64,000 nucleotides of DNA, from positions 1 to 64,000 of the forward strand of contig JAPLNM010000047.1 in assembly GCA_026692845.1 (NCBI GenBank), in the 5' to 3' direction. Under the pieces are notes generated by a model, which worked only from the letters and a program-made list of their open reading frames with translations, made no database searches and was not told where the DNA came from. Position numbers and translations under genes: made by a program. Of the stretch, positions 38,610 to 56,300 are shown one piece after another. Positions within the stretch are counted from its first letter, which is position 1; each line of letters starts with the position of its first letter. The DNA is from Planctomycetota bacterium. GTDB taxonomy: Bacteria > Planctomycetota > Planctomycetia > Pirellulales > Pirellulaceae.

Positions 38610-38637
38610 AGAGTGGTGACATTAGATGAGTTCAAAG

Positions 38638-38721
38638 TGCGGTCGAGAGGGCTCGAACCTCCAAGGTATTTCTACCACTAGCCCCTCAAGCTAGCGCGTC
38701 TGCCAGTTTCGCCACGACCGC
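38638..38721 (-). tRNA. tRNA-Leu (anticodon GAG)
   Basis: Read on the minus strand, the acceptor stem is GCGGTCG pairing with CGACCGC, with discriminator A at 38638. The D arm (TGGCGAAACTGGCAGACGC) is of leucine type. The anticodon stem CTAGC/GCTAG holds the loop TTGAGGG, giving anticodon GAG. A long class II variable arm (TGGTAGAAATACCTT) and a T arm with TTCGAGC follow. The 84-nt gene does not encode the CCA end (ACT follows). There is no sign of an integrated element beside it. Confidence 0.95.
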
Positions 38722-38865
38722 ATCAATCCAGATCAAGCACAGCGTGTTTCTTGTGCTTCGTCTGAGGATTTCAAAGTGTATGAATTCGCGATCCTACGTC
38801 AAGGGGATTTCCAGGATCGCCACCGGCTAATCCGTTTAGAAATCCACTCCGTGGTGGGATTCTCA

Positions 38866-40644
38866 TCAGCGGACCAGTTCCGGCAGATACTTCACCGGGA
38901 TCGTCCCACAATTGAGGACTTGCTCGTGGAATTCCTGCAGATCGAACTTCTCTGCCCTTGCTCGTTGGACATTTTGCCTGAGACGGTAAAAGGCAGTTCG
39001 TCCGACGAAGTAGGTCGAAAGTTGGCAGGAACTCTGCTTGGCTCTCTGAACTTTTCCGAACGCTTCTGCTTCGGTTTGATACCCGCGACCGACTAGCAAT
39101 TCCATGGCTTGTTCGTCGGTCATCTCGGAGCAGTGCATTGAATGGTCGAGGATCGCGTTGAGAACCGCGCGCAGGTAAAACTTAAGCTGATGCAACCGCA
39201 GCGCCAAATCGCCATTGCCGTACCCTTGGTCAAGCATCATTTGTTCGGTGTAGACCGCCCAGCCTTCGGCGAACGCTCCAGAAGAGAGGATTTTGCGGAT
39301 CGGGGAGCGCACGCGGTTCGAGTAGTCGAGCTGGACGTAGTGCCCGGGATAAGCTTCGTGGATCGTGAGGATTTGAAGCATGTACTTGTTGTACTCTTGG
39401 AAGAACGCTTCTTGGCGTTCGGCGGGCCAGTCCGATGGAGGAGGAGCGATCGCATAGAGGCTTTTGGCATTGGGGTCCAAAGCGGGCGCTGGATTCAGAT
39501 AAGCCGCCGAGAATCCGCGTTGAAACTCCGGCATCTCGATGATATCGCATTGGTCGGGGTCAGGTAGCGTCAGGATCTTTTCGCGGCGAATCATCTCCTT
39601 GATCGAAGCGACCGTATCCTGTGCGTCTTTGACCAACCCGTCTGGTTTGCCATGTTGTTTTCCAAGTTCCCCTAAGACCCGGCGGATGGTATCTCTTCGA
39701 CCTTGCTGGTCGTCAGGGGGCAGGCTTGTTTTGTCGAAGAGCGAGTTCCATAGTTGTTTGGCGACATAATACATTTCTTGCTCGACTCGATCCGCTTCGG
39801 CGTTCGCAGCCTGGATGACCTCTGCGGCGGTCAAACCCGCATCGAGCTCAAGTTCTAGCTTCTTTGCGAACTTGTCTTTACCGATACGCCAGTCCCCATC
39901 GGAGCGTGGAAGCACCTGTTCTTGTAGGAACTTTTTGTAATCCTTGAGGCTTGCAACCGCGCTGCGACTAGGGGACTGCAATGGGCTGAGCTGGGGCGAT
40001 TCTTCAGCGAGTTTGAAGATTTCGCTTTCATAAAACGCGATCGCTCCATCGGTGCGTTTGATCGCGATTTCCGTAAGAATCCTAGGGGGGGTGCCGATCG
40101 ATTCCTTGGCGGCCTGGACGATACTTGGAATCTTCTCGATCCGTTTGGCTGCGTTCTGGATATTCCGATGTTTGGGCAAAGTCGATTGCGTCAGCAGCGT
40201 AAAAACACTATCGGACGCATACGTTAAATACACTCTTGGATCGTTTGCAAAGTCGTTGCTCTGGGTTGCTTGCCAGATCCGGTACTCCAGAAAGTGCTGC
40301 CAGATTTCCAAATCGATCTGGGAGTTGCGAGACAGCCGCTTGAGGTCTACTTGCTGTTGCAAATCTGCAAGCACCTTCTTGTCGTTCGCGACGTCCAGTG
40401 CTCGGGCTTGAGGGGACAGGTCGTCGAGCTCGTGATCGTAGTCGTGATTGCCCAAATAGGTTGCGAACATCGGATGCCGCTTGCACTGATCCTCGAGCCA
40501 CTCTTTGAACCTTGTCGCTAGCCTGGCGTCCTCTTGAGCCGTTTCTTGGGCCGCAGTGCATGGTTTGGAAAGAATTTCTGGAAGCCCCAAAACCGTCGAT
40601 CCGAGCGACAGCGATAAGAGTAAACCTTGGGATAGCCGATTCAT
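38866..40644 (-). CDS. DUF885-family zinc peptidase-like secreted protein
   Basis: A 592-residue exported protein (signal GLLLSLSLGSTVLGLPEIL region). The DUF885 core carries HEAYPGHYVQ (HExxxxH, residues 429-435) and a downstream Glu460 in GAFAEGWAVYTEQ, an arrangement like gluzincin metallopeptidases. N-terminal DHELDDLSPQARALDVAND is typical for the family. Biochemically the family is little known; peptidase activity is inferred. A GGAG sits inside the end of hisB, 9 bases before the ATG, and the start codon directly follows the hisB stop, so it is translated from the hisB message. Confidence 0.8.
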   Translation of the reverse strand: MNRLSQGLLLSLSLGSTVLGLPEILSKPCTAAQETAQEDARLATRFKEWLEDQCKRHPMFATYLGNHDYDHELDDLSPQARALDVANDKKVLADLQQQVDLKRLSRNSQIDLEIWQHFLEYRIWQATQSNDFANDPRVYLTYASDSVFTLLTQSTLPKHRNIQNAAKRIEKIPSIVQAAKESIGTPPRILTEIAIKRTDGAIAFYESEIFKLAEESPQLSPLQSPSRSAVASLKDYKKFLQEQVLPRSDGDWRIGKDKFAKKLELELDAGLTAAEVIQAANAEADRVEQEMYYVAKQLWNSLFDKTSLPPDDQQGRRDTIRRVLGELGKQHGKPDGLVKDAQDTVASIKEMIRREKILTLPDPDQCDIIEMPEFQRGFSAAYLNPAPALDPNAKSLYAIAPPPSDWPAERQEAFFQEYNKYMLQILTIHEAYPGHYVQLDYSNRVRSPIRKILSSGAFAEGWAVYTEQMMLDQGYGNGDLALRLHQLKFYLRAVLNAILDHSMHCSEMTDEQAMELLVGRGYQTEAEAFGKVQRAKQSSCQLSTYFVGRTAFYRLRQNVQRARAEKFDLQEFHEQVLNCGTIPVKYLPELVR

Positions 40645-41238
40645 TTAGAGAACTCCTTTGGAGCTAGGTATGCCGTTTTGCCTGGGATCATTTTCTATCG
40701 CGATGCGGATGGCCCTGGCGGTTGCCTTGAAAATCGCTTCGGCGATGTGATGGGTGTTTCGTCCGTAGTGAAGGAGGATATGCAGATTGCACTTGGCATT
40801 GTTGGCGAAAGCCTGCCAGAAATCTTCGACCAGTTCGCTGTCGAAATCCCCGAGTTTCGGCGAGGGCATCGGTGCATTGAATACCAAGTAACTCCGTCCA
40901 CTGAAGTCGACCGCCGAGGTGACCAGGGTCTCTTCCATCGGCAAGACCAAGTGCCCGTAGCGTCGAATCCCCGACTTGTCTCCTAGACTGTCGCCGAGGG
41001 CTTGACCTAAGCAGATCGCAACGTCCTCGGTCGTATGGTGCGCATCGACTTGCAAATCCCCTTGGGCTTGTACCTCGAGGTCAATCAAAGCGTGTTTTGC
41101 AAAAAGAACCAGCATGTGGTCGAGAAAGCCTACCCCGGTTTCGATCGAATGCTTGCCCGTGCCATCCAAATTGATTTTCAGAGCGATTTTCGTTTCGGCC
41201 GTCTTGCGTTCGAGTTGGCTGGTCCGATGCGGTGTCAT
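40645..41238 (-). CDS. hisB: Imidazoleglycerol-phosphate dehydratase
   Basis: A 197-residue enzyme for the sixth step of histidine synthesis (IGP to imidazole acetol phosphate). Motifs: [32 protein letters not shown] (manganese ligands) and [17 protein letters not shown], the second metal-binding HH. It is the single-domain kind, without the fused histidinol phosphatase of enteric bacteria. AGGAG is 8 bases before ATG 41238. It is apart from other his genes, as is usual in this phylum, and is followed directly by a DUF885 gene. Confidence 0.97.
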
Positions 41239-41423
41239 CTTTGTTTCTCCTAAGCGAATTTAGCTGATGGATCAATTATGCTCGAAAACGCTCCAATCAC
41301 CAACAGCATCCAGCAGATCCGTCTTATCCAGCGGATCCAGCGGATTTTTTGTGGTATCATAGAAGCCCTTCCTCGGGACGTCCCGTCCCCCCATCCCAAC
41401 CACTTTATTTGAGTGATCGGTCC

Positions 41424-44400
41424 ATGTACTCACCCAGATCTGCCTTGCGTTTAACCCGCTTAGCCCGTTGTTGTCTGTTTGTTGCTTTATTGGTTTTCGG
41501 GAATGTGCAGGCCGCACCGCCCCTTCAGTTACGCAAAGGGGACCATATTGCCTACATCGGCAATGCCACGGCGGACCGAATGCAGCACTCGGCTTGGTTG
41601 GAGACCTACATCCACGCGATGTTTCCAGACTACGACCTGACGGTGCGAAACCTGGGCTATCCAGGCGATGAACTCAAAACCCGAAATCGGGAAGAAAATT
41701 TCGGTAGTCCCGACGAATGGTTGACGAAAGTCCAAGCGAGCGTCGTGTTTTGTTTCTTTGGGCACAACGAGGCCCTCAAGGGACCGGGAGCACTCGAAGG
41801 CTTTAAAAAGGACCTTTCCGAAACCATCGACAGCATGCTCGCTCAAAAATATGACGGGCAAACCCCACCGCGCCTGGTTTTCTTCTCGCCGATCGCTCAT
41901 GAGAACCTCAACGATCCGAACTTACCTAACGGCGATGCGAACAACGCGAACTTTGCGATGTACACCCGAGCGATGCAAGAGGTATGCGAATCGAAGAATG
42001 TCCTTTTCGTCGATATTTTCGCTCCATCGAAAGCACTTTACTCGAAGGCGACAAAGCCTTTGACCATCAACGGGATTCACTTAGACGACAACGGCGACGA
42101 AGCTGTCTCGCAGGTGATTGCCAAGGCGTTGTTCCCCAACGAAAAGCTGCGTATGGATTCCAACGGAATCGGAAAACTACGCGATGCTGTCTTGGATAAG
42201 AATGATCATTGGTTCAATCGATACCGAGTCGTCGACGGCTACAACGTCTTCGGAGGGCGATCGAAATTGGCTTGGTTCGGCCAGTCCAATGCGGACGTCA
42301 TGATGCGGGAGATGGAGATTTTCGATGTTAAAACCGAAAACCGTGACCTGCGGGTATGGGCCGTGGCCAAGGGTTCGGATCTGGAAGTCAAAGACGACAA
42401 TCTACCCGAAGTGATCGCAGTGAAAACGAATATCCCAGGTGCGCTTGCCGATGGCAAACACAAGTACATGGGGGGCCAAGAGGCGATCAGCAAAATGAAA
42501 GTCGCCCAAGGCATGAAGGTGAACCTTTTCGCGAGCGAAGAGATGTTTCCGGAATTGATCAATCCGGTGCAAATGGCTGTCGATCCCGACGGACGACTCT
42601 TCGCTTCGGTTTGGCCGTCCTATCCTCACTGGAATCCGACGCAGCCAAGGAAAGACAAGATTATTTGCTTGCCCGACGACAATAGCGACGGAGTTGCCGA
42701 TCGCTGCGTGACGTTTGCCGACGAGCTCAACAGCGTCACAGGTTTTGAATTCTGGAATGGTGGGATGCTCGTCGCAGCCCTTCCGGAAATCTGGTTCCTC
42801 AAAGATACCGACGGCGACGAGAAAGCGGATTTGAAAATCCGCATGCTCCAAGGGGTCTGCAGCGCTGACTCCCACCACTCGGCCAACGCGATGCTCATCG
42901 GTCCCGACGGATGGCTTTATTGGTCGCGCGGGATTTTCAATATCGCTGCTATGGAAACCCCGACGAAAACCGTTCGATCGGGAGAAAGTGGCGTTCACCG
43001 TTTCAATCCACGCACCTTCGAAATGGAGTTTCACTTCCCGATCGGTCCGAACCCGCACGGAGATGTTTTCGACCAATGGGGCTATCAATTCGCCAACGAT
43101 GGAACCAGCGGCACGGGCTCCTACGTCAACATCGGCAAAGGGATCGGGAACAAGCAATGGTTCAAAATGCGGGTTCGTCCGGTGGCCGCCACGGGAATCC
43201 TCTCAAGCAGTTTATTCCCCGAGGAGAACCAAGGGAATTTCTTGATCTGCAACTGCATCGGATTTTTAGGTGTTCTTCAGCATAAGGTCCAATACAACGG
43301 CGCGGATATCACGTGCCAGGAAGTCGAACCGATCGTCGTTTCGAGCGACCCGAACTTCCGACCCAGCGATGTCGAAGTCGGAGGCGACGGAGCTTTGTAT
43401 GTCGCTGACTGGCAAAATGCGATCATCGGGCATATGCAGCACAACATGCGAGATCCAAACCGAGATGACCAACACGGGCGGATCTATCGGGTAACGGCAG
43501 AGGGCAAAGAGGCACTCAAAACGACGAAGTTGCGAGGCAAACCGATCCCGGAAGTCCTAGGAGCCTTTATGTCCAAGGAAAACGGGACACGGTACCGTAC
43601 CCGGATCGAACTCAGCGGACGAAAAGCCGACGATGTGGTCGCTTCGCTAAACGCTTGGTCCAAAACCCTCGACCCAGCAAATCCAACGCATGCACAAGCC
43701 CTCTTGGAAGGACTCTGGGTTCTTGAGGAACATCGCCGACCTGACTTGGGCTGGATCGCCAAGACCTATCTTGCGGCCGATCCCCGAGTGCGCGCCGCCG
43801 CGATCCGCACCCTAGGTCACTGGTCGGGTCGTATCGAAAATTGGGGTCCGATCCTCCTGACGGCTGCCAAGGACGAGGCGGCATTGGTACGTGCCGAGGC
43901 GGTCAAAGCAGCCGTTGAATTCGACGGCTATGACGCGATCGAAGCGATCTTTGAGGCATCGGTCCGTCCGACCGATGCGGAACTCGATACGGTCATTCGC
44001 TATGCCAAACAGCGAGCCAAAATCGATCAAGGATTGCAAGACGCAATCGCCTCGAACAAACAACTCTCCGAGGCAGCGATGGAATATGCGCTCAAGAACG
44101 CTGGTCCAGAATCCTTGCTGAAATTGCCACAGTCGGAGCGGATTTATCAAGCGATTCTCGATCGATCCAACGCTTCGACCGGAGCCCTTCGAGAGGCCTT
44201 GCAAGGTCTCTCGAAAATGCGAAAAGAAAGCTCGATCCCTGTGGTGCTCAAGCTCGTCAATGATCGGGATCAAGCCGGGCAAACCGAGGCCCTCAAAGGC
44301 TTGCGAGAATTGCTCTTGGAACAACCCTTGGGTGAAATCCGCAAATACCGAGGAGCGCTTCAAAACCTCGCCACCAAGGCCAAACAGGCCGATACCCGAC

Positions 44401-46385
44401 AGCTCGGCTTTGCAGCTTGGGCTACCGCAGAAGGCAACGGCGATGCTCCTTTTGCCACCGCATCGGCGAGCAAACAGGGGCTAGAAGATCTTCTCAAGGC
44501 AATCCCCGGAATCCAAAACGCAGAGGTAAAGAAAAACCTTTTCTCGTCGGCCCGTGCGCTGATGTTCGATCTGCCTGCGTCGCTCGGGACCGAACCGAGC
44601 GGCAGCGGTCTCCAACAGCCAGGAATCCAAGTCGATTACTTTTATCCAGCGACTGACAATGTCGCTGCAGAAACCCTCGCGGCTATGAAGCCTACCGATA
44701 GCGGAATCGTTCCGCAGATCGTTATGAACGTCCCGCAACGCAAGCAAGCCGACAACTTCGCATTGCGATTTGCTGGAAATCTCAACATTCCTCAGGCAGG
44801 AAAATACACCTTCTTTGTCGCTTCGGATGACGGGTCTCGGATCTATCTCGACGACAAACTCTTGGTCGACAACGACCGATTGCAAGGGATGACCGAACGA
44901 TCCGCTACGGTCGATCTGGCAGCCGGTCCGCACAAGCTCATGGTCACCTATTTTGATAATGGTGGAGGAGACGGACTGAGCGTCGCATGGAGCGGTCCGG
45001 GGATCCAAAAGCAACCGATCCCAACCGATCGATTGACCGCAGGGGGAACTGGCGAGACGCTCCATGATCTTGCCATCCGGGCAGTGAACTCGATTCCAGG
45101 CAATGAAAAAGAAAAGTTCGCCGACTTTACCAAGCTCATCAAATCCGATCGCCAAAGAACGACCGCCGTACAAGCGTTGCGACTGCTTCCCGATACGAGT
45201 TGGGATGCGAAGGAACTGCCGAGCTTGGTCGACAACCTTGTCGGCTACCTCAGTTCGATTCCCGCCAAACTCCGGACCAGCGGTCCAGCCACCGACACGG
45301 TCGAATTGGTCAAGTCCCTTTCGAGCAAATTGCCAGCAGACTCGGCCAAGGCCGTTTCCGACCGACTCGGCAATCTCGATGTGCGAACCATCGCTGTTGG
45401 CGCCGTCGTAGAGCGAATGATCTACGATAAAGAGCGAATCGTTGTCGAGGCCGGCAAGCCTATCGAGTTCCGGTTCGCGAATACCGACAACATGCCGCAC
45501 AACTTCGTCATCGTCAAACCCGGATCGCTCGAGGAGGTTGGTTTGAGTTCCGATGCTTCGGCACAAGACCCAGACGCTCGCGAAAGAAACTTTGTTCCCA
45601 AGTCCGACAAGATCCTGCTTGCGAGCAAATTGATCGGACCGGGCGAATCGCAAGCGATCAGCTTCGAGGTGCCTAAGGAACCTGGAATGTACCCCTATGT
45701 CTGCACGTATCCAGGTCACTGGCGACGGATGTTCGGTGTCTTGGTCGTCGTTTCGAGCATCGAGCAGTACAACAACAATCCGGAAGCTTATCTTGCGGCC
45801 AACCCCCTGGAAATCCAGGACGAATTGCTCAAATCGATCGGTCGGAATACCGAATGGAAAATCGAGGATCTGGCCGGGGAACTCAAGGGGCTCAAGCAAG
45901 GCCGATCCTACGAGGTCGGCAAGAGTCTGTTCGCGGCGGCAAGTTGCATTGGATGCCACAAACTCGCAGGGGAAGGCAAAGAGTTCGGACCGGACTTGAG
46001 CAAACTCGATGAGAAGAAAATGTCCGCCGATTCTATTTTAAAATCACTCCTGATGCCCTCTGCCGACATCGAGGACAAGTACCGCGCACGGATCTTCCAG
46101 ATGGATTCCGATGCGATCATTACGGGGATGGTCGTCGAGGAATCGGACAAAGAAATCAAAGTGATGGTCGATCCGTTAGCCAAGGGCGAACCTACCGTTC
46201 TGGATAAGGAAGAGATTGTCGGACAGAAAGTCTCGGCCGTTTCAACCATGCCTCAAGGATTGCTCAACAAATTGACGAAAGAAGAGATTCTCGACCTGAT
46301 GGCCTATGTTTTGGCTCGCGGAGACAAAAAGGCCCCGGCGTTCCAAGGTCATGAGCATGGCGACGCTACTCATGGTGACCATTAA
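41424..46385 (+). CDS. Giant exported SGNH/PVC-dehydrogenase/PA14/cupredoxin/cytochrome c fusion
   Basis: A 1653-residue exported protein (signal CCLFVALLVFGNVQAA). In order: an SGNH hydrolase-like domain (HIAYIGNATADRMQHSAWLE, later GIHLDDNGDEAVSQ); the PVC-type membrane-bound dehydrogenase beta-propeller (LINPVQMAVDPDGRLFASVW, DTDGDEKADLKIRML); alpha-helical HEAT-like repeats; a PA14 domain (AGKYTFFVASDDGSRIYLDD); a type 1 copper domain with NMPHNF and YVCTYPGHWRRMFG (His, Cys, His, Met); and cytochrome c with CIGCH at 1508-1512. The tail HEHGDATHGDH is His-rich. A redox role at the cell surface is likely; the substrate is unknown, sugars being the common guess for the family. The start at 41424 fits the signal peptide. 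Confidence 0.85.
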   Translation: MYSPRSALRLTRLARCCLFVALLVFGNVQAAPPLQLRKGDHIAYIGNATADRMQHSAWLETYIHAMFPDYDLTVRNLGYPGDELKTRNREENFGSPDEWLTKVQASVVFCFFGHNEALKGPGALEGFKKDLSETIDSMLAQKYDGQTPPRLVFFSPIAHENLNDPNLPNGDANNANFAMYTRAMQEVCESKNVLFVDIFAPSKALYSKATKPLTINGIHLDDNGDEAVSQVIAKALFPNEKLRMDSNGIGKLRDAVLDKNDHWFNRYRVVDGYNVFGGRSKLAWFGQSNADVMMREMEIFDVKTENRDLRVWAVAKGSDLEVKDDNLPEVIAVKTNIPGALADGKHKYMGGQEAISKMKVAQGMKVNLFASEEMFPELINPVQMAVDPDGRLFASVWPSYPHWNPTQPRKDKIICLPDDNSDGVADRCVTFADELNSVTGFEFWNGGMLVAALPEIWFLKDTDGDEKADLKIRMLQGVCSADSHHSANAMLIGPDGWLYWSRGIFNIAAMETPTKTVRSGESGVHRFNPRTFEMEFHFPIGPNPHGDVFDQWGYQFANDGTSGTGSYVNIGKGIGNKQWFKMRVRPVAATGILSSSLFPEENQGNFLICNCIGFLGVLQHKVQYNGADITCQEVEPIVVSSDPNFRPSDVEVGGDGALYVADWQNAIIGHMQHNMRDPNRDDQHGRIYRVTAEGKEALKTTKLRGKPIPEVLGAFMSKENGTRYRTRIELSGRKADDVVASLNAWSKTLDPANPTHAQALLEGLWVLEEHRRPDLGWIAKTYLAADPRVRAAAIRTLGHWSGRIENWGPILLTAAKDEAALVRAEAVKAAVEFDGYDAIEAIFEASVRPTDAELDTVIRYAKQRAKIDQGLQDAIASNKQLSEAAMEYALKNAGPESLLKLPQSERIYQAILDRSNASTGALREALQGLSKMRKESSIPVVLKLVNDRDQAGQTEALKGLRELLLEQPLGEIRKYRGALQNLATKAKQADTRQLGFAAWATAEGNGDAPFATASASKQGLEDLLKAIPGIQNAEVKKNLFSSARALMFDLPASLGTEPSGSGLQQPGIQVDYFYPATDNVAAETLAAMKPTDSGIVPQIVMNVPQRKQADNFALRFAGNLNIPQAGKYTFFVASDDGSRIYLDDKLLVDNDRLQGMTERSATVDLAAGPHKLMVTYFDNGGGDGLSVAWSGPGIQKQPIPTDRLTAGGTGETLHDLAIRAVNSIPGNEKEKFADFTKLIKSDRQRTTAVQALRLLPDTSWDAKELPSLVDNLVGYLSSIPAKLRTSGPATDTVELVKSLSSKLPADSAKAVSDRLGNLDVRTIAVGAVVERMIYDKERIVVEAGKPIEFRFANTDNMPHNFVIVKPGSLEEVGLSSDASAQDPDARERNFVPKSDKILLASKLIGPGESQAISFEVPKEPGMYPYVCTYPGHWRRMFGVLVVVSSIEQYNNNPEAYLAANPLEIQDELLKSIGRNTEWKIEDLAGELKGLKQGRSYEVGKSLFAAASCIGCHKLAGEGKEFGPDLSKLDEKKMSADSILKSLLMPSADIEDKYRARIFQMDSDAIITGMVVEESDKEIKVMVDPLAKGEPTVLDKEEIVGQKVSAVSTMPQGLLNKLTKEEILDLMAYVLARGDKKAPAFQGHEHGDATHGDH

Positions 46386-46400
46386 GCCTGAGCGTGGTGT

Positions 46401-47615
46401 ATGAAACTAGGATTGCAGACCGGAGCTATCGGCGAACTGATTTGGAACGTCGATAGCTCGATGGTCATCACGCTCGGGGGCGATTCGCGAGCCACGGTTT
46501 TCTCGACTCCCAACATGATTATGTTGATGGAGCGCGCAGCGCGTGAGGCGGTGCGTCCTTATCTGGAACCTGGGGAGGAGTCCGTTGGGACCGATGTCCA
46601 GATCCAGCATGTCAGCGGTGCTGGGATCGGCTCGGTGGTTCGAGGCGAAGCCCGGGTGACGCATATGGATGGCAAAAGGATCCATTTCGATGTGGCAGCT
46701 TGGTGTGGGGAGCGCCAACTGGGGTTTGGAAAGCACACGCGAGCGCTGGTCAAACTCGAACGACTTATCGAGAATTTGGAAAAGCAAAACCAGGAAGAAC
46801 CCAGGGCCATGCGATTGACCCCAAACGCGTCGGAATTGCCATCCCTCAAGACGTTGCTCGTGGAGTTATCGGGGAAAATCGTTACGGTGACTTTGAATCG
46901 ACCTCGATCACTCAACGCGGTAAACGCAGAGATGACAGGAGATTTCGAGAAGCTTGTCAGTTGGTTATTAGGGCATAAAGATCAGTTTCGTGTGGTATTG
47001 CTTCGCGGGGCGGGAGATGCATTTTGCGCCGGGGATGACATCAAGGAACTGCCTGGTTTTACGCCGGAGTTTTCCAGAGAATTGAGTTTGCGCCAGGCCG
47101 AGTTGTATTTGGCTTGGGAACGCTTGCCACAGATTGTCATTGCCATCGTGCATGGCGATGCGATGGGTGGCGGATGTGTCGCAGCTTACTCGGCAGACTT
47201 TCGGCTCGCATCGCATGACGCTCGCTTTGGGATGCCCGAGATCAAACTTGGGTGGCCACCCGGTTATGGGATCGCCCAGCTAACGAATTTGATCGGCAAA
47301 TCGCGAGCCCTCGAGATGTGCTTGCTCGGCGAGCCGATCAACGCGCAGAAAGCTCTCGAATGGGGCTTGGTCCATGAACTCGCACCCCGAGGGCAACTAG
47401 CTCAACGTGGGCAGTGGTGGGCTGAGCGTTTGTTGAAGCTACCTGCCGAAGCGATCCGGGCGACCAAGATGCTGGTTCATTTGGATGAGGGTGCGCAGCC
47501 TAAAGTAGCCTACCGAGGCGACACGGAAGCTTACGTGCGTTGCTTGCAATTGCCCGATGCGATTGAGGGAATCCGAGCATTCATCGAAAAGCGCCCGCCA
47601 AACTTCGGCCGCTAA
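46401..47615 (+). CDS. Hotdog thioesterase fused to a crotonase-family enzyme
   Basis: A 404-residue two-domain protein. Residues 1-120 match the FlK-like hotdog thioesterases: Thr36 in FSTPNMIMLMERAAREAV, Glu44, and His70 in DVQIQHVSG lie where the FlK catalytic Thr/Glu/His do. After a linker (125-148) residues 150-404 are an enoyl-CoA hydratase/isomerase domain: NRPRSLNAVNAEM, oxyanion loop GAGDAFCAGDDIKEL, GDAMGGGCVAAYSADFRLAS and FGMPEIKLGWPPGYG. The second crotonase Glu is kept (Glu280), but the first is Val260, so simple hydration is doubtful. It lies 16 bp after the giant cytochrome gene. The acyl-CoA substrate is unknown. Confidence 0.8.
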   Translation: MKLGLQTGAIGELIWNVDSSMVITLGGDSRATVFSTPNMIMLMERAAREAVRPYLEPGEESVGTDVQIQHVSGAGIGSVVRGEARVTHMDGKRIHFDVAAWCGERQLGFGKHTRALVKLERLIENLEKQNQEEPRAMRLTPNASELPSLKTLLVELSGKIVTVTLNRPRSLNAVNAEMTGDFEKLVSWLLGHKDQFRVVLLRGAGDAFCAGDDIKELPGFTPEFSRELSLRQAELYLAWERLPQIVIAIVHGDAMGGGCVAAYSADFRLASHDARFGMPEIKLGWPPGYGIAQLTNLIGKSRALEMCLLGEPINAQKALEWGLVHELAPRGQLAQRGQWWAERLLKLPAEAIRATKMLVHLDEGAQPKVAYRGDTEAYVRCLQLPDAIEGIRAFIEKRPPNFGR

Positions 47616-47655
47616 CGCTCGCACTCGGTCAATGCCGGTAGATATCATCAACAAT

Positions 47656-49404
47656 TTAGAGAGTTTTTTCGATTTCCTTGCCGAATTCGATAGGCAGAAC
47701 GACGCGGAAGGTACTGCCTTGTCCAAGCTGACTAGTGAGTCCGATATCGCCTCCTAGGAGGCGACATAATTCACGGACGATCGACAGCCCCAATCCGGTT
47801 CCTGAGTGCTCTCGTGTAAGGGCATCTTTGCCGACCTCGCCAGAGACTTGCCGAAACTTCTCAAAGACCACCTCGTGTTCATAGGGTGCGATTCCAACGC
47901 CGGTATCGGCCACTGAAATCCCAAGTGTTCCATCCTCATTGGGCTCTGCACAGATCGTCACGAGACCACCCTCGGGGGTAAATTTGATCGCATTGGAGAT
48001 CAGGTTCGTAAGGATTTGAGAGATCTTGCCTTGGTCTTGCGTTACCCTGAGTTCTTGGACGCTTGAGTCGACCTGCAAGTCGATATTTTTGTCCTCGGCC
48101 ATTTTGCGAAATAGTTCGATCTGAGCCTGGATCAATCCCAAGAGATCGAAATGGGTTGGCCGAACCTCCATTTTACCGGCCTCGATTTTTGCAAGATCGA
48201 GGATGTCGTTGATCATTTCCAACAGGACACGGCCTGAGTTTTGAATGTTACCGACCCAACGCCGCTGTTTGTCGGTCAATGACTCGATTCCTGCAAGCAC
48301 ATCGCTAAAACCCAAAATGCTATTGAGTGGGGTTCGCAACTCATGGCTCATGTTCGCCAAAAACTCCCCTTTGAGCCTATTGGCTTCGTACAACTGCAGG
48401 TTGACGCTGGCCAATTCATCGATCCGCGAATCGAGTTCTTGATTGACCGCTTGGATCTCTTTTTGAGTCGTTGTGATGTGTCGAAGCATCCGGTTGAAGG
48501 ATTCCGAGAGTTCCGTGAACTCGTCGTTGGTATCGACTTGGAACTCCAAATCGGTTTTTCCATTGGTGATCTCATCGGAAACAAATTTCAGTTCTGAGAG
48601 TGGGTTGATGACCAAGCGTTTGAGGACCCAGTGGATAAAGAACAGCGAAAGGGCAAGGGTTGCAATGCCGATTGCTGAGAGTAGCGAATAGCTCCAGATT
48701 CTCCAGAATCTCTTGTCGGTAACGGGGATGCGAATCTGTAGGACACGAAAAGGGTCGACCGACATCACCGAAAGCTTGGGGAGGGAAAGGGCTTCGTTGC
48801 GGCCGTGGCATTCGCGACAAGACTCTCGAAAATGAAGAGGTTGATAATAGAGGTGGTACCCGTCGATCGGTCCAACTTCTGCGAATACCGTTTGGGTCGG
48901 ACCGGCGATTAGGTCCCAGTTGCCTTGCTGGGAAACTGGTTCGGCTGTTGGATTGCTTTTCACCGGTGTGGAATTCTTGGCCGCATCGGCACGCGCTTGC
49001 GTTTTGGCCTGCTCTTCGAGTTCGGAGAGTTTGGTATGGATTCGGTTGAGAATCTTCAAGTCATCATCAACGGCTAGGCGTCCACCGAGCGAGTTATGTT
49101 CAAGGCCGTCGTTGATACGTAGCAAAGCCGATTCGTATTGGTTGCTCGGTGTTTGTTGATCAAAATCAGAGGGCCCGGAACCCTCGGTCCCCTGTTTGCT
49201 GGTCATCACGACAGTGTGCGTGCGCCAAATCACCATATTTGCGTGGTCGCGGGCCGATTGTCGGATGGTTTCGCTCACGAGCCGTTCGGCAACCAATTGC
49301 ACGGCGACTGCTCCTAGGATCAAGGAGAAAAGCAAGGCGAGCCCTAAAAAGAAGAGAGCTTTTTTTTCTAGCGACCACTCTGTAAACAAGCTCTTGAACA
49401 ACAC
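47656..49404 (-). CDS. Heme-binding periplasmic sensor histidine kinase
   Basis: A 582-residue inner-membrane kinase. TM1 is at about 17-38, followed by a periplasmic sensor of about 195 residues that holds CRECH (196-200), a c-type heme attachment motif within a DUF3365/Tll0287-like domain; TM2 at about 236-258, HAMP at about 260-312, and a coiled coil. The HisKA H-box is ANMSHELRTPLNSILGFS with His354. The ATPase domain has NLISNAIKFTPEGG, VADTGVGIAP and HSGTGLGLSIVRELCRLLGG. There is no receiver domain and no response regulator gene nearby, so it is an orphan kinase. The heme suggests sensing of redox state or a gas. Confidence 0.85.
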   Translation of the reverse strand: MLFKSLFTEWSLEKKALFFLGLALLFSLILGAVAVQLVAERLVSETIRQSARDHANMVIWRTHTVVMTSKQGTEGSGPSDFDQQTPSNQYESALLRINDGLEHNSLGGRLAVDDDLKILNRIHTKLSELEEQAKTQARADAAKNSTPVKSNPTAEPVSQQGNWDLIAGPTQTVFAEVGPIDGYHLYYQPLHFRESCRECHGRNEALSLPKLSVMSVDPFRVLQIRIPVTDKRFWRIWSYSLLSAIGIATLALSLFFIHWVLKRLVINPLSELKFVSDEITNGKTDLEFQVDTNDEFTELSESFNRMLRHITTTQKEIQAVNQELDSRIDELASVNLQLYEANRLKGEFLANMSHELRTPLNSILGFSDVLAGIESLTDKQRRWVGNIQNSGRVLLEMINDILDLAKIEAGKMEVRPTHFDLLGLIQAQIELFRKMAEDKNIDLQVDSSVQELRVTQDQGKISQILTNLISNAIKFTPEGGLVTICAEPNEDGTLGISVADTGVGIAPYEHEVVFEKFRQVSGEVGKDALTREHSGTGLGLSIVRELCRLLGGDIGLTSQLGQGSTFRVVLPIEFGKEIEKTL

Positions 49405-49475
49405 TTGGCTCCTGGCGGTCCGACCTCGGATCCAATGACGCGTGCGAGCTAGATTATACTCAAATTCTCGTCAGC

Positions 49476-50426
49476 TTACAGCATCCCACGAACATCCGCT
49501 GCGGTGGTATATCCGTTTTCGATTGCGAGCCAGATCAAAAGCCCTTTTTGAGCATGCAAACGATTTCCTGCCTGCTCAAACACCAGACTATTTTTCGAAT
49601 CGATCACCGCATCGGTAATTTCCATCCCACGGCGTGCAGGCAAGCAGTGCAGAACCTTGCATCGATCGGGCGCCATCCCCATGAGCTTGGTGTTGACCTG
49701 ATAAGGTCCAAAGGCGGCTTTGCGAGCCTCGTTTTCCTCTTCCTGCCCCATGCTCGTCCAAACATCGGTGTAGATAAAATCGGCGTCTTTGATCATCGAT
49801 CGGATGTCATCGCTCTGATCGAAATCCAATTTCCCAACCTTACGAACTTCGTCGAGAAACCCGTTTGGAATTTGGTACTTTTCGGGGCAAGCGAGTCGGA
49901 AACGCAGTCCGCTCATGGCCGCGGCCCGGATCAGCGATCGCACGACGTTGTTCCCATCACCGACAAATGTCAGCTGTTTTCCTCGCAAGTTGCCTCCGGT
50001 CGATTCATCGATGGTCATGACATCGGCTAACGCCTGGCATGGGTGCGAATCATCGGTAAGACCATTGATGATAGGGACCGCGTTGTGTCGGACCAGCTCC
50101 TCGATCGTTGTTTGGGAGAATGCTCTGCAGACGAGAAAATCGCAGTATTCTCCGAGAACTCGCACGAAATCTCCGATCGTCTCCCGCTCGCGCCAACCGG
50201 CATCGCCGGTCAAGTACAAAGCGGTTCCGCCGAGTTGGGCCATCGCGGTTTCGAAACTAACGCGAGTTCTCAAACTCGCCTTCTCGAATACCAACGCACA
50301 GGTCCGGTTCTTGAGTAGGTCCGGTCGATGTCCCTGGCTCAAATGTTTTTTGAGTTGGTGCGACCAATCCATGATCGTTTGAAATTCGTCGATTCGCAAA
50401 TCGACAAGCGATCTTAAATGTCTCAT
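49476..50426 (-). CDS. argF: Ornithine carbamoyltransferase
   Basis: A 316-residue enzyme making citrulline from ornithine and carbamoyl phosphate in arginine synthesis. Carbamoyl-phosphate motif: FEKASLRTRVSFE (the SLRTR variant of STRTR). Further marks are NGLTDDSHPCQALADVMT and HCLPARRGMEI, the ornithine-binding region. The start at ATG 50426 (MRHLRSLVDL) matches the family; an upstream open frame to 50588 is not credible. argB ends 14 bp before it on the same strand, so argB-argF form a unit. Confidence 0.95.
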   Translation of the reverse strand: MRHLRSLVDLRIDEFQTIMDWSHQLKKHLSQGHRPDLLKNRTCALVFEKASLRTRVSFETAMAQLGGTALYLTGDAGWRERETIGDFVRVLGEYCDFLVCRAFSQTTIEELVRHNAVPIINGLTDDSHPCQALADVMTIDESTGGNLRGKQLTFVGDGNNVVRSLIRAAAMSGLRFRLACPEKYQIPNGFLDEVRKVGKLDFDQSDDIRSMIKDADFIYTDVWTSMGQEEENEARKAAFGPYQVNTKLMGMAPDRCKVLHCLPARRGMEITDAVIDSKNSLVFEQAGNRLHAQKGLLIWLAIENGYTTAADVRGML

Positions 50427-50440
50427 CGTAGGATCTTTGC

Positions 50441-51352
50441 TTAGATTCGCGAAGCGGCCGTGTTGCGTTGTTGCAGGATCTCCGTGCCTACCCCAGCCGT
50501 TGTGTAGATCTCCAGTAAGAGCGAATGGCGCAACTGGCCATCGATGATATGTACCTTCCCAACACCCCGGTTCAAGGTAGACAGGCAAGCCTCGACCTTA
50601 GGGATCATCCCACCACTGATAACGCCTTGCTCAATCAACGACTTTGCTTCCGCGGCAGTCATCGAATGGATCACACTCTTTGGATCGTCTTTGTCCTGTC
50701 GCACTCCATTGACATCGCTGATAAAGATCAGCTTTTCTGCCCCCAAGGCTTCCGCCACAGCCATCGCTGCGGTGTCGGCGTTGACATTGTACTTCTGCCC
50801 TTGAGGGTCGATGCACATCGACGGAATGAAGGGGATTTGCCCTGTATAGGTCAGGCTTTCGATCGTCTGACGGTCGACCCGGGTCACCTGCCCAACATAC
50901 CCTAAATCGATCGGATCGCTGCCGACTTCCTCAAGAAGCAATTTTTCGCCGAAAAGAACATTGGTGGTGCGGAAGTTCAAATTCATCGCTCGTCCCCCGA
51001 GCCGTTCGACCTCTTCGGTCAAAAACGTATTCAAGTCGTATCCGAGTGTTTGCTCGACAATATCGAGCGTCTTGGCGTCGGTCACCCGGCGTCCCTTGAC
51101 CCATACCGGCTCGATTGCCGCGGCCTCCATCGCCTTGTTGATCGACGGGCCCCCTCCATGGACCACCACCGGTCGCATCCCGACGGTTTCCATGAAAATG
51201 ATGTCCAAAAGCGTATGGTGCATCGCCTCGGGGTTGGCCATGAGCGAACCTCCGAGCTTGATGACAGTCGTTTTGCCTCGAAAACGACGGATCCAGCCCA
51301 TCGCTTCGATTAGTACGTCGGCCTTTTGGACCGCTTGGGTTTGGTCGTCCAC
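50441..51352 (-). CDS. argB: Acetylglutamate kinase
   Basis: A 303-residue kinase that phosphorylates N-acetylglutamate, the second step of arginine synthesis. Motifs: [50 protein letters not shown] and [11 protein letters not shown]. The GTG at 51352 is chosen because AGGA lies 6-7 bases upstream and the length is normal; a GTG at 51394 would add 14 residues but has no ribosome binding site. A hairpin (CGCCGA...TCGGCG, 51386-51411) overlaps the region before the start. Confidence 0.93.
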
Positions 51353-51532
51353 GTTGGTTCCTGCAATTGAGCTATAAAACAACAACGCCGACACGCTCTA
51401 GCGCATCGGCGCATTGGAAGTTTCCCAGGGAAATCAACCTGCAATCTTTGGACATCAGACGAATCAGTCCGCGCCAAACCGAGATTTTAGCCTCAATAGC
51501 CACCTATTTCAACTGAAACCGATCATAGACCA

Positions 51533-53359
51533 CTAAGGCTTCGGCATCAACTTCCCTAATTCTGCTGTTGCTTTCGTTACGATCGGTACAGCCCAAGCCT
51601 CTTTACCATACAAATCGATTAGGCCTCGCAAGCGTAGCGTGAGTTCTTCGGGTGCCGATGCCGAACCGAGAACCCTAGCATAATAGCTTTCGAGTTGCGA
51701 ATATCTGATTTTGTCCGATTCAGATTCCCGCTGCGCTTCTAGTTCCTCTTCGAGTCGTTTTGCGAATCGGAACCAAACTTCCTCGTCTTTATCGAGTAGT
51801 TCGACAGGGTATGCATTTTGGAACGCGATGAGCTTGGACCTTGCCAATGCGACTTGGGTGTCTTTGATATTTACAATTTCTCGCAAAACGCAAACCATCG
51901 CATCCTGGCCTTGAAACCGTGTACTCGATCGACGTTGCAGAAAACGCAGACGCTTGAAATAAGCGATTTGTTCGGATGCCGCTTCGAGTTTATCTATCCG
52001 CGAATCCTTCGGATATTTGGCCCGAAAGGCTTCGATCTGATCTTCGATGTCGAGCAATCGGGATTCGTCCCCACTGAGGATCGCTGCCTCGATGGGCTCG
52101 TATAGCCGGTCGGGATTCACGGGTTGAGAAAAATAGTAAAATCCTCCGACGCATGCGAGTAGCGCACCGAGGATCAACAGGATTTCCCCCCAGCGTTCAC
52201 GTTTCTCGAGCTCAGGACTTGGACCTTCAAAGATCGAAACCTTCGCTCGGTCTTGGTCGCTGACCTCGGTAAAGGATGTCCGGCGAGCGGGTGTGATAGT
52301 GGAATTAGTCTGCGGTTGGAACTGCGAGCCGCCGGTGATGTGTTCTTTAGTCGGTTCGTCTAGGGGTACGATTTCAATGCGAGTGGCGTCATGGTAGGGC
52401 GAGTCCGACAAATCGGCGATCGAAGGCAGTTCCTTGACGTCGATGCTTGTTTTCGGGCTGTTGGTCGGCACATCGGGAACCTCAGTGGGTTGTTTATCCA
52501 ACTTCGATTCCTGCTGCTTGGCCTCGCGTTGGCGAAGCCCTGCTCGAAGGGCTTGGAGCAAGTTCATGGTCAGATAAGCGGTCGCTGGTCGTTTTTTCGG
52601 ATCGCGACTGAGCAAATCATCGATTATTTTGCAAAACTCTTCTGGCACCTCAGTTACAAGGTGGCTCATCGGAGTGTAGGGCCCATACCGAATATTGAAG
52701 AGAATCTCAGGGATGTTTTTTCCCGTAAATGGAGCGCGTCCTGCTAAGCATGCGTAACAAATTGCACCCAATGCGTACAAATCGCTTCGGGGACTGACCG
52801 CGGCCCCTTCGGCTTGCTCAGGTGGCATGAAGTCGGCGGTTCCAACCGTCGCGCCTGGCTGTGTGAACCCGTCGCCTCCAAACAACTTGGATATACCGAA
52901 ATCCAAGAGTTTGATCGTATTGGCTTGGGTGACCATCATATTTGCGGGTTTCAAGTCGCGATGGATGATTCCAAAATCGTGTGCTTGTTTGAGCGCTCCT
53001 GCGATCTGGATTGCCCAATCCAGGACGATCTGCCATTCGATCCTTCGCTCGAGCTTGAGTTTTTGATGCAGATTCAACCCATCGACGAATTCCATCGAGT
53101 AGAAGGGCAAGGATTCGGCTTCCCCGATCCCGATCAAGCGGACGATGTTTGGGTGTTTGAGTCGGATAAGTGTTTGAATTTCGGATTCAAACCGGCTATG
53201 AAACCTTGGTTCCTTGGAAAGTTCCTCCGATATGATCTTTACGGCAACGCGTTCGTGGCTCTCCTCGTGGATCGCTTCGTAGACGACTCCCATGCCACCG
53301 CGCCCTAGGAGGCTAACAACCCGATAAGGACCGATAAATTCCGGTAAGGCTCCTAACAT
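51533..53359 (-). CDS. PknB-type Ser/Thr protein kinase, membrane-anchored
   Basis: A 608-residue kinase. Kinase domain about 12-270: glycine loop LLGRGGMGVVYEA, Lys41, catalytic HRDLKPAN (133-140), DFG (153-155) and PPE in place of APE (FMPPEQAEG). A disordered Ser/Pro/Thr-rich region is followed by a TM helix (EILLILGALLACVGGFYYF) and a 190-residue extracytoplasmic domain rich in charged helices, without a recognised fold (no PASTA repeats). It starts 3 bp after the ceramidase-fusion stop (AGAGG abuts the ATG), so it may be coupled to it. Confidence 0.9.
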   Translation of the reverse strand: MLGALPEFIGPYRVVSLLGRGGMGVVYEAIHEESHERVAVKIISEELSKEPRFHSRFESEIQTLIRLKHPNIVRLIGIGEAESLPFYSMEFVDGLNLHQKLKLERRIEWQIVLDWAIQIAGALKQAHDFGIIHRDLKPANMMVTQANTIKLLDFGISKLFGGDGFTQPGATVGTADFMPPEQAEGAAVSPRSDLYALGAICYACLAGRAPFTGKNIPEILFNIRYGPYTPMSHLVTEVPEEFCKIIDDLLSRDPKKRPATAYLTMNLLQALRAGLRQREAKQQESKLDKQPTEVPDVPTNSPKTSIDVKELPSIADLSDSPYHDATRIEIVPLDEPTKEHITGGSQFQPQTNSTITPARRTSFTEVSDQDRAKVSIFEGPSPELEKRERWGEILLILGALLACVGGFYYFSQPVNPDRLYEPIEAAILSGDESRLLDIEDQIEAFRAKYPKDSRIDKLEAASEQIAYFKRLRFLQRRSSTRFQGQDAMVCVLREIVNIKDTQVALARSKLIAFQNAYPVELLDKDEEVWFRFAKRLEEELEAQRESESDKIRYSQLESYYARVLGSASAPEELTLRLRGLIDLYGKEAWAVPIVTKATAELGKLMPKP

Positions 53360-53362
53360 CCT

Positions 53363-56300
53363 CTAGTCCCCTTTCCTCGGTCCAGAGGATCTAAGGTAGC
53401 TAATAATACCTGCGATTTCCTCAGGACTGAGCAACTGTTCAAAGCCTTCGGGCATCAGGGACCGCTCGGACTGGCGGAATTCGAAAATATCGGACTTCTT
53501 GAGGTTGTCGATTCTTCCGTTGCTATCGACCCATTCGATGCTCGATTCATCCTCTCGGAGTTTCAAGCCCGTCAAGACCTGTGCGTCATGCGTGCTGGCT
53601 TGAAAGACCCAGTACTTTTCCTCGATGGATCGATTCGGATCCAAGATGCCGATCGCCCAAGCTTCGTTGGTCCAATGGGCTAGACCGCGAAGATTCGGCG
53701 CCAGGCTCTCCTGGGTGCCATCTTCGGCTTTGCGTCCTTCATGGCACGATGCGCAATGCTTCCTATAAGCGACTTGGCCGATACTCACATCGGCCTTTTT
53801 GGGCCAAGCAAGCAGTGCTTGGCGAACCAGAGCCGGTCGATCGGCTCCCGGTGCGGGTCCGAATACCTCGATGGCCAATTGGGATACTTGTTCGGAAACA
53901 TCGGATCGCATCTGTTGAATCGTGATTGCATCGATATCACCGGCTGGAATTTTCCCCTTTCGAACCGCATCGAGAATTTCCATGGAACCCGCTGGGCCCT
54001 GGGATAGCTTGCTCAAGACGCCCGATCGAGTCGTCTGGGACAAATCTCGCCATCGGTCGATCAGTTGCGCGGAGGCTTGGCCGCCTAGATTCAATAAACC
54101 GAGGGCCAATTCCCCATCGATCGGCATGTTTTCGCCTCGCACTAACGCCCCAAGCATCAGCGCATGGTCATCGGTCCAAGTTGATCCCATCCGTGAGGAA
54201 AGTAGGTTCACACCGGCGAGCACTCGGCTTGGGTCGACTTTGGTTGCGTCTTGATTGTACAAACGCAATGAAGCGCGAGCGGAGTCAAGAATACGCACGA
54301 TGGATGCTTCGTCCAAGCCCGAGATATCGGCCGCCGCAAACTGCTTGGCCAAGAGATAATGCCAAGTTGGCCTCGGGCCGGTTTCGTTTGCCACCGATGC
54401 GAGCAACTCAGCGCGATACGTTGCCGAAATCCTCGGTACAAGTTTCTCGGCAATCTTTTGCATATTGGGGATCTGCGCCTTGCCATTGAGCACAGCTCGT
54501 AGAACCCCATCGACACTTGTTGGATTTAAAAAATGGATCGATTCCTGGACCCAAGCATCCTGCGCGTGGACCGACAACGCGTTTGCGATCCATTCGATCG
54601 GCGGATCATTGCCTTGACTGGATTCAACGGCTGCGACCATCGCTAAAGAGGGCCACGAGGCGATCGACTCTTGGGGAATTGAACTCCAAAAACGTTTTCT
54701 CACTTCGGGATCCAGTCCGAGTGAATTGACGTTCTGGGCTAGGAAACGGAGTGTTTGTGGATCGCTCAAACGGACCAAATCATCGAATTGGTCGATCGGG
54801 AAACTTCCCAGCGCCATGAGCACACTCGCGACACGAACGCGGGTGCCTGGCCGATCGGTCTGCAGGAGTAATTCTTGAAGCGGCGTAGCGACCGTCGCGA
54901 TGCCTTGGCGATCTTTCCAACGACTCAAGAGCGTTTGCTGTGCAAGATCGGATCTTGCCGAGTTCAGGCCAGCGATCTCTTGAATCAACAAGCTATCCTT
55001 TTTATTCGAAAAGTCCTCGATCGTTCGTGGAGCGTAATCCGTTCGGCGAATGCGGTAGATACGTCCTCGATCTTCTCCGGCTCGCACATTGATCCGCCGC
55101 TGCCACTCCTCGGGGATCCACTCGGGATGCTCGATCACATAGCGGTACATGTCGACGACCCACATCGTACCGTCGGGGGCGTTTTCGATGCGTACGGGGC
55201 GAAACCAAGGGTCGCTGCTGCGTAGGAACTCGCTCTTCGAATCGGTACCGATACGGTTTGCAGACCACGTCGCTCCGGATGCGGAAAGTTCATACCGCAC
55301 GACGAGGTTATGGACAGGCTCGCACACCAACGCAAATCCTCGCATCGCCTCGCCTTGGCCCTCCCCACGATTGATTACTGTACTACAAGCCGAAGTGAAG
55401 CGGTTGATCGCATAAAGATCGTTGAAGCGGTCGGCTTGTTGACTGAGCGGAAATACCGGAGGAATGACCGGAGGGTTGGTGATCAACTGATAACGCCGCT
55501 TGGGCTTGTACCCACTTCGTTCGATCCAACGCTGCGGATAGACGTAATGGAACATCGGCAAACTGTTTTCGTTGCCGAACCAATTTCCCACCTCATCGGT
55601 CGTTCGAATGTACTGGGTAACGCCGGTTTCGAGCCGCAGATCGCCGGTGTCTGGGTCGAGGCTCAAATCCGATCCAGAAATCGTCATTTGTTGGGCAGGC
55701 CGTTGGGAAACCAAACCGTTGCCTGTGACGGTTACGTTATTGGCGCCTCCGCCGGGTCCGAAATACAAACGGTGGTCCAAGCCGTAGGTAAATCCATGAA
55801 CCCGATGCTGCGGATTGCCTTCAGGAAACCCCGTGACGAGCACGACCTTTTCGTCGCATTTGCCATCCCCATCGGTGTCGCGCGCAAAGAAGATATCCGG
55901 TGCACAAGCGATGACGACTCCATCGCGCCAGGCATAGATCCCGGCTGGGTAATTCAATCCGTCGAGAAACATCGTGCTTTGATCCATCACTCCATCGGCG
56001 TCGGTGTCGGTCAACGTTTTGACGCAACCGGTCTTCGGTCCGCCCAGCGGATAGTCACCCATTTGGACCACCCAAACTTTTCCGTCTTTGCCCCAAGCGA
56101 TCCCGACCGGATCGGTCACAAGCGGCTCACTGGCAACCAGTTCGATGGTGTAGCCGTCGGGAACCTCCATCGATGCAAGCGATTGTTCGGGGCTTCGCGG
56201 TTGGTCGGCCAACTGTTGCTGCTGGGTCATCTGCAACACGCGATCGACGATCTTTTCCTCGGTCCCCGACTCCCAACGGCCGGGCTGCCCGTAATAGAGC

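Follow-up and report, generated by a model that had tools for sequence, protein, structure and literature searches.

An FlK-type hotdog thioesterase fused to a crotonase with a single catalytic glutamate: a rare and patchily distributed protein of Planctomycetota, Verrucomicrobiota and Acidobacteria

The thioesterase FlK hydrolyses fluoroacetyl-CoA and discriminates against acetyl-CoA, and among the crotonases hydroxycinnamoyl-CoA hydratase-lyase (HCHL) is thought to activate water with a glutamate and other side chains. The activity of AcuH is lost if either of its glutamates is replaced by alanine (PMC5651017), and the E121A mutant of DmdD is inactive (PMC3660561); a review associates isomerases with a single catalytic glutamate, PaaG having only one (PMC4498308). 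Fusions of hotdog domains are also known, and the accessible sections of Dillon and Bateman (PMC516016) name LpxC-FabZ, HAD-hotdog, 3HCDH-hotdog and a few others, as well as the fcb operon. The locus described here lies in a window of 64,000 nucleotides of a Planctomycetota contig (the whole stretch of DNA that was analysed) and comprises the following features.

41349 to 46385, plus strand: upstream neighbour of 1678 amino acids with GDSL, DUF7133, HEAT, PA14, cupredoxin and cytochrome c matches, given as context only, no functional link to the fusion being implied
46401 to 47615, plus strand: fusion gene of 404 amino acids, FlK-type hotdog thioesterase and crotonase, a single open frame with an ATG start
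46449 to 46754, plus strand: FlK-type hotdog domain (PF22636), residues 17-118, Pfam E 3.7e-28
46506 to 46508, 46530 to 46532 and 46608 to 46610, plus strand: codons of Thr36, Glu44 and His70, respectively
46755 to 46871, plus strand: linker and lead-in to the crotonase, residues 119-157
46872 to 47609, plus strand: crotonase domain (PF00378), residues 158-403, Pfam E 2e-48
47178 to 47180 and 47238 to 47240, plus strand: codons of Val260 (site of the first catalytic glutamate) and Glu280 (second glutamate)

An in-frame stop lies three codons ahead of the ATG of the fusion, 15 bases separate its start from the end of the 1678-residue frame on the same strand, and a convergent frame of 582 amino acids lies 40 bases past its end. 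On the opposite strand, the single reverse frame that was translated over the fusion is interrupted by stops, and the longest of the reverse-strand open reading frames listed over this stretch has 126 amino acids. Elsewhere in the window, a frame of 1466 amino acids on the minus strand (53363-57763) falls in the same cluster as the secreted-looking 1678-residue frame (41349-46385, plus strand).

By the tested criteria, the two domains are members of PF22636 and PF00378, as judged from the protein sequence. The fusion lies above the curated cut-off of PF22636 (FlK; 98.1 bits against 27) and of PF00378 (ECH_1; 165.4 bits against 27), a 4HBT match of Pfam likewise exceeds its cut-off, and in phmmer residues 32-122 align with solved FlK chains at E 3.5e-14. 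The first-pass annotation had proposed an FlK-like thioesterase, with Thr36, Glu44 and His70 in the right order, linked in one chain to a crotonase; both proposals are borne out, the three residues being correctly placed and one frame carrying both matches, at this locus and in its full-length homologues. The predicted structure has a mean pLDDT of 87.1 and a pTM of 0.65, values of pLDDT below 50 being confined to linker residues 130-136, and a fold search, whose matches are crotonase rows only, supports the crotonase fold (3pea, Z 35.1, rmsd 1.6 over 256 residues). Among the best 60 of 212 solved chains, the one nearest to the family profile is the 3-hydroxypropionyl-CoA dehydratase 5zai (E 1.1e-64). 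The best NCBIfam match reaches 171.9 bits against a cut-off of 400; the top matches are hydratases, far under the cut-off, which is reached by none of the best 25 of 59 models (E 1e-20) and by none of the best 25 of 73.

Thr36, Glu44, His70, Val260 and Glu280 are invariant in all 32 aligned rows, and the loss of the first catalytic glutamate with retention of the second, noticed earlier in the one sequence, is therefore a property of the whole alignment. Standalone FlK rows carry Thr, Glu and His in the same columns as the fusion; we take Thr36, Glu44 and His70 to be the FlK-type catalytic set. In the crotonase half, Gly211, Asp213, Gly256 and Gly258 are invariant (32/32), the oxyanion-hole glycines being kept, and Cys259, Trp285 and Gly288 are also identical in 32 of 32 rows, Tyr378 in all 31 rows that reach its column and Tyr289 in 31 of 32. 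Against three close relatives, an in-house Nei-Gojobori script put dN/dS at 0.079-0.092 in the FlK half and at 0.036-0.048 in the crotonase half, values that are only rough because dS of the crotonase half exceeds 1. Both halves look to be under purifying selection from these codon comparisons, the constraint on the crotonase half being no weaker than that on the FlK half, and the identities of the two halves correlate (r 0.89 over 465 pairs). Within the linker, position 137 (46809-46811) holds Met in 22 of 32 rows; the DNA ahead of this codon is purine-rich, and Met137 may be what is left of the start codon of a crotonase that was formerly a gene of its own. A linker ATG is present in 25 of 30 loci with a mean anti-Shine-Dalgarno pairing of -6.4, against -1.5 for 271 other internal ATGs and -1.9 for 30 real starts. 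An internal translation start at this place was nevertheless rejected: reshuffling of synonymous codons gives similar pairing (mean p 0.42), and the pairing is no evidence for such a start because residue make-up alone explains the signal.

When 84,980 species genomes were scanned with exact patterns, 122 stretches matched; a relative is encoded by 104 of these, and the best 80 were kept, corresponding to 79 distinct loci. The full-length two-domain protein occurs at at least 28 of these 79 loci, with 42-91% identity to the protein of the window, and no internal stop was found in any fusion homologue; the count is a lower bound because the scan uses exact patterns. The search for the two-domain architecture that had been suggested at the outset thus places the fusion well beyond its own genome. 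One further fusion (L020) runs off the end of its contig, and at L031 and L033 the crotonase part alone is present, at a contig start. The full-length homologues come from metagenome-assembled genomes (MAGs) labelled Planctomycetota, Verrucomicrobiota and Acidobacteria, the labels including Pirellula, other Planctomycetota, Opitutae, Verrucomicrobiales, 'Akkermansia muciniphila' MAGs and Acidobacteria. Within its own genus, 16 of 27 genomes (own included) match at E 1e-40, one gene being split over two contigs (G005) and one truncated, and at the same threshold a set of 33 genomes, one from each of 33 further genera of the family and order, gave no match. A sample of the phylum yielded the fusion in 4 of 392 genomes, one of them from another genus of the same family; the remaining 19 matches at E 1e-60 are crotonase-only in 18 cases and two separate genes in one (G429). 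In the phyla of L013 and L016, sampled at E 1e-90, the seed alone was found (1/387 and 1/396, respectively). The fusion family is genuine, rare and patchy.

A profile of the fused crotonases gives full-length members at least 372 bits and other crotonases at most 228; L031 and L033, which are partial and stand outside the profile, reach at least 400 bits, and the contig-cut members 262 and 109. The crotonase phylogeny was read from a quick tree only, in which the fusion crotonases form one clade (SH-aLRT 97) with long-branch warnings. FlK proteins also occur alone, and in the FlK quick tree the standalone rows lie among the fused ones, with open forks and no clean fused clade, so that a single fusion event is not established from this half. 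In planctomycetes, FlK-like and crotonase genes are found adjacent and unfused at L101 (24 bases apart) and at L134 (one small frame between them). The FlK search yielded 11 standalone FlK loci, and only one of them (L134) has a crotonase within its 1.5-kb flanks, L101 having come from a crotonase search. At L101 (1477-4205, planctomycete G429), an FlK-like gene, a two-glutamate crotonase and a second crotonase stand in a row, an unfused counterpart of the fusion. The L101 and L134 pairs share with the fusion the two kinds of gene, their order and their strand; however, they are unfused, and the chemistry at L101 need not match that of the fusion because its first crotonase keeps both glutamates.

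The carriers were counted under 25 handles, which stand for 24 distinct genomes (G423 and G466 give the same coordinates), and every absence reported from them is limited by MAG incompleteness. The fusion is the sole PF00378 match in 6 of the 24 carriers and one of two such matches in 12 more, the second being below the cut-off in G454 and G456. A 3HCDH_N match is absent from 3 of 24 carriers, weaker than 1e-10 in 7 more and strong in 14, the genome of the window included, and in four carriers (G278, G457, G458 and G460) a single frame matches crotonase as well as 3HCDH_N, the arrangement of FadB; carriers therefore do not generally lack beta-oxidation. The genome of the window has two crotonase matches, one acyl-CoA dehydrogenase match and one strong 3HCDH_N match, and the FlK match of the fusion is the only one found in it. 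Its only other crotonase match (L121 1465-2244, C102) has Ala and Ser at the columns of the catalytic glutamates.

No conserved operon that would name a pathway surrounds the fusion, and no gene is common to all fusion neighbourhoods. A homologue of the 1678-residue gene lies directly upstream of the fusion in 10 of 30 neighbourhoods (window included), and the other scanned neighbours (20 proteins) comprise sulfatases, GFO/IDH/MocA oxidoreductases, a zinc alcohol dehydrogenase, PEP carboxylase, a TonB receptor and housekeeping genes. Two big clusters of minus-strand frames (29 and 25 loci) were discarded as conserved neighbours, being antisense to the fusion: 45 of 64 and 38 of 38 members overlap it on the opposite strand, and the other 19 were not counted as genes. 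RhaT, of the rhamnose symporter family, is the gene next to the fusion at 4 of 29 loci, which belong to two phyla and show two arrangements: on the same strand and less than 100 bases upstream in L021 and L025, and convergent in L015 and L016. L021 and L025 each carry an MGH1-like glycoside hydrolase as well, to which L025 adds an alpha-L-rhamnosidase. For the family at large, rhamnose cannot be the explanation, since RhaT is present under only 5 of the 25 carrier handles (24 distinct genomes), in 4 of these 5 next to the fusion. A link to sugar catabolism via RhaT is a weak lead, and stays a lead because many neighbours were looked over first and the four loci amount to two related pairs. A tblastn search with 18 acyl-CoA and sugar-metabolism queries in 29 loci (370 kb) and the window returned RhaT (four loci) and one SDR (L032) only. 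The queries for acyl-CoA dehydrogenase, ligase fragment, CoA-transferase, SDR, epimerase, FAH and RhaT were shown to work; the silence of eight others (FadA, the dehydrogenase part of FadB, PaaH, PaaI, PaaJ, PaaK, PaaZ and MenE) says little, because these missed all nine control loci too. No fluoride riboswitch was found at 38000-52000 of the window at the gathering threshold, and fluoroacetate detoxification was set aside on this ground.

The reading preferred here, to which we give a probability of roughly 0.45, is that the fusion is one bifunctional enzyme whose one-glutamate crotonase does enolate chemistry independent of activated water and whose FlK-type domain releases the acid. The oxyanion hole of the crotonase would hold a thioester enolate, Glu280 would be its only acid/base, and the reaction, proceeding without activated water, would be a double-bond shift of the Delta3-Delta2 type or the cleavage of a C-C bond, not a hydration; the FlK-type domain, with its Thr, Glu and His, would then hydrolyse the thioester, and the free acid would leave. 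That both domains act on one substrate would be the ordinary meaning of a conserved fusion, and this substrate is probably not an intermediate of fatty-acid beta-oxidation. The fusion crotonase has the one catalytic glutamate that serves as a criterion for Delta3-Delta2 enoyl-CoA isomerase. PaaG is a functional and not a positional parallel, and no direct model, because its acid lies outside the Glu280 column; in the alignment it has Phe at this column and Asp at that of Gly288. A beta-oxidation hydratase is disfavoured by Val260, by the few crotonases in carriers and by the lack of pathway neighbours for the queries shown to work. A hydrolase of the HIBCH type is disfavoured as well: the motif, which we take from plant CHY1 to be an Asp eight residues after the Glu, meets Gly288 in 32 of 32 rows where Asp is expected, and the match to PF16113 (ECH_2, HIBCH-type), though above its cut-off (101.4 bits against 27.2), covers model positions 3-178 of 335 only. 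It is a long shot that the substrate of the two-step enzyme, the only crotonase in some carriers, is an acyl-CoA derived from a sugar or deoxysugar, which would be isomerised or cleaved before release of the acid; if true, it would mean a CoA-dependent branch of sugar catabolism that is patchy over Planctomycetota, Verrucomicrobiota and Acidobacteria.

It is conceivable, though unlikely, that the crotonase is instead a hydratase or hydratase-lyase in which water is activated by Glu280 and other side chains, the hotdog domain hydrolysing substrate or product. Cys259, Trp285 and Tyr378, all invariant, and Tyr289 (31/32) lie near the site and could replace the lost glutamate, the nearest solved chain among the best 60 of 212 is a dehydratase (5zai, E 1.1e-64), and hydratase models head the NCBIfam matches, albeit with scores far below the cut-off. 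On the other hand, HCHL forms a long, unsure branch of the quick tree, the HCHL record used being an automatic annotation, and the loss of the first glutamate speaks against hydration because its mutation abolishes this activity in AcuH and DmdD (PMC5651017, PMC3660561). Rather improbable is an arrangement in which the thioesterase alone works as a housekeeping acyl-CoA hydrolase, the crotonase being a sensor of CoA esters or a scaffold that sets the oligomer. Such a role would agree with a first catalytic glutamate gone in every row, with the lack of conserved pathway neighbours and with the existence of FlK proteins on their own, but not with Glu280, Gly211, Asp213, Gly256 and Gly258 kept in 32 of 32 rows, nor with a crotonase half constrained at least as much as its partner.

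The remaining alternatives carry far less weight. A fusion of MenB (DHNA-CoA synthase) with the DHNA-CoA thioesterase of menaquinone synthesis is very improbable, even though E. coli MenB has Val at the Val260 column and, according to a survey (PMC3914697), MenB is a crotonase whose next step belongs to a hotdog thioesterase. MenB has Gly at the Glu280 column, the MenB chains 2iex and 2uzf score well below the hydratases by the family profile, and the SGGDQ and GSFDGG stretches of E. coli MenB are absent, the fusion having CAGDDIK and LGWPPGYG instead. In the same survey (PMC3914697), none of 5 Planctomycetes and none of 5 Acidobacteria proteomes contained MenB, and all of these had futalosine genes, whereas MenB was present in 3 of 4 Verrucomicrobia proteomes. 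An assembly or gene-calling join, the concern raised in the first-pass annotation, can practically be dismissed: the named sources of full-length fusions are MAGs and the G005 gene is split over two contigs, but at least 28 full-length homologues from many assemblies, none with an internal stop, refute it.

Conservation of the fusion suggests that its two acyl-CoA activities have a substrate or a branch point in common, and the fusion is for this reason a handle on a pathway unseen by annotation, which would label one half 'thioesterase' and the other 'enoyl-CoA hydratase', the second name being probably unfitting. In the six carriers where it is the sole crotonase match, the fusion is not one more paralogue of fatty-acid enzymes. 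If the bifunctional enzyme works as proposed, a one-glutamate crotonase joined to a thioesterase would be a compact system for how the superfamily steers enolates away from hydration.

With FlK (PF22636; PDB 3p3f and 3kv7), the fusion shares the family by cut-off, the match over residues 32-122 and the order of Thr, Glu and His; however, FlK is a stand-alone protein of about 140 amino acids, whereas the domain of the fusion is joined to a crotonase, and the place of Phe36, which we take to be the lid residue of FlK, is not conserved in the fusion. Another FlK-like gene, on the Delftia plasmid pUO1 (L158 3869-6761), adjoins an alpha/beta hydrolase and has a CrcB fluoride exporter close by, a setting that would be compatible with fluoroacetate metabolism. 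The two-glutamate hydratases (rat ECH 1dub, 6lvp, 5zai and E. coli PaaF) have in common with the fusion the fold, the oxyanion-hole glycines and the second glutamate, with 33-39% identity to the nearest, but keep Glu144 and Glu164 (rat ECH numbering), the fusion having Val260 in place of the first in all 32 rows. The crotonases of L155 and L156, at about 39-41% identity, share the motif Pro-Glu-Ile-(Lys/Thr)-Leu-Gly-Trp with the fusion but are unfused, keep the first glutamate and stand apart from it in the quick tree. On Sinorhizobium and Streptomyces plasmids (L155 639-9258, L156 736-7032), they belong to sugar-transport clusters together with aldose 1-epimerase, SDR and CoA-transferase, which suggests a CoA-dependent sugar route for these clusters.

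DmdD resembles the proposed enzyme in that one polypeptide performs both chain chemistry and thioester hydrolysis, but in DmdD both reactions take place in one two-glutamate site (PMC3660561), whereas hydrolysis in the fusion would sit in a second domain. PaaG and PaaI likewise bring together a one-glutamate crotonase and a hotdog thioesterase in one operon; unlike the fusion, they are separate genes, and according to the review PaaI acts on phenylacetyl-CoA and not on the product of PaaG (PMC4498308). In the hotdog fusions covered by the accessible sections of PMC516016, as here, the hotdog domain is joined to an enzyme of a neighbouring step, and no fusion of crotonase and hotdog is noted there. 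No description of an FlK-crotonase fusion was found in the full-text literature searched, which covers few subscription journals, and no chain with both domains among the best 60 of 212 solved ones; the earlier claim of a new combination holds, as far as this coverage goes, for this order of domains, and has to be given up for the kind of enzyme in general. An acyl-CoA enzyme that acts with, or is fused to, a hotdog thioesterase is already known, and it is the thioesterase-crotonase variant of this arrangement that is new.
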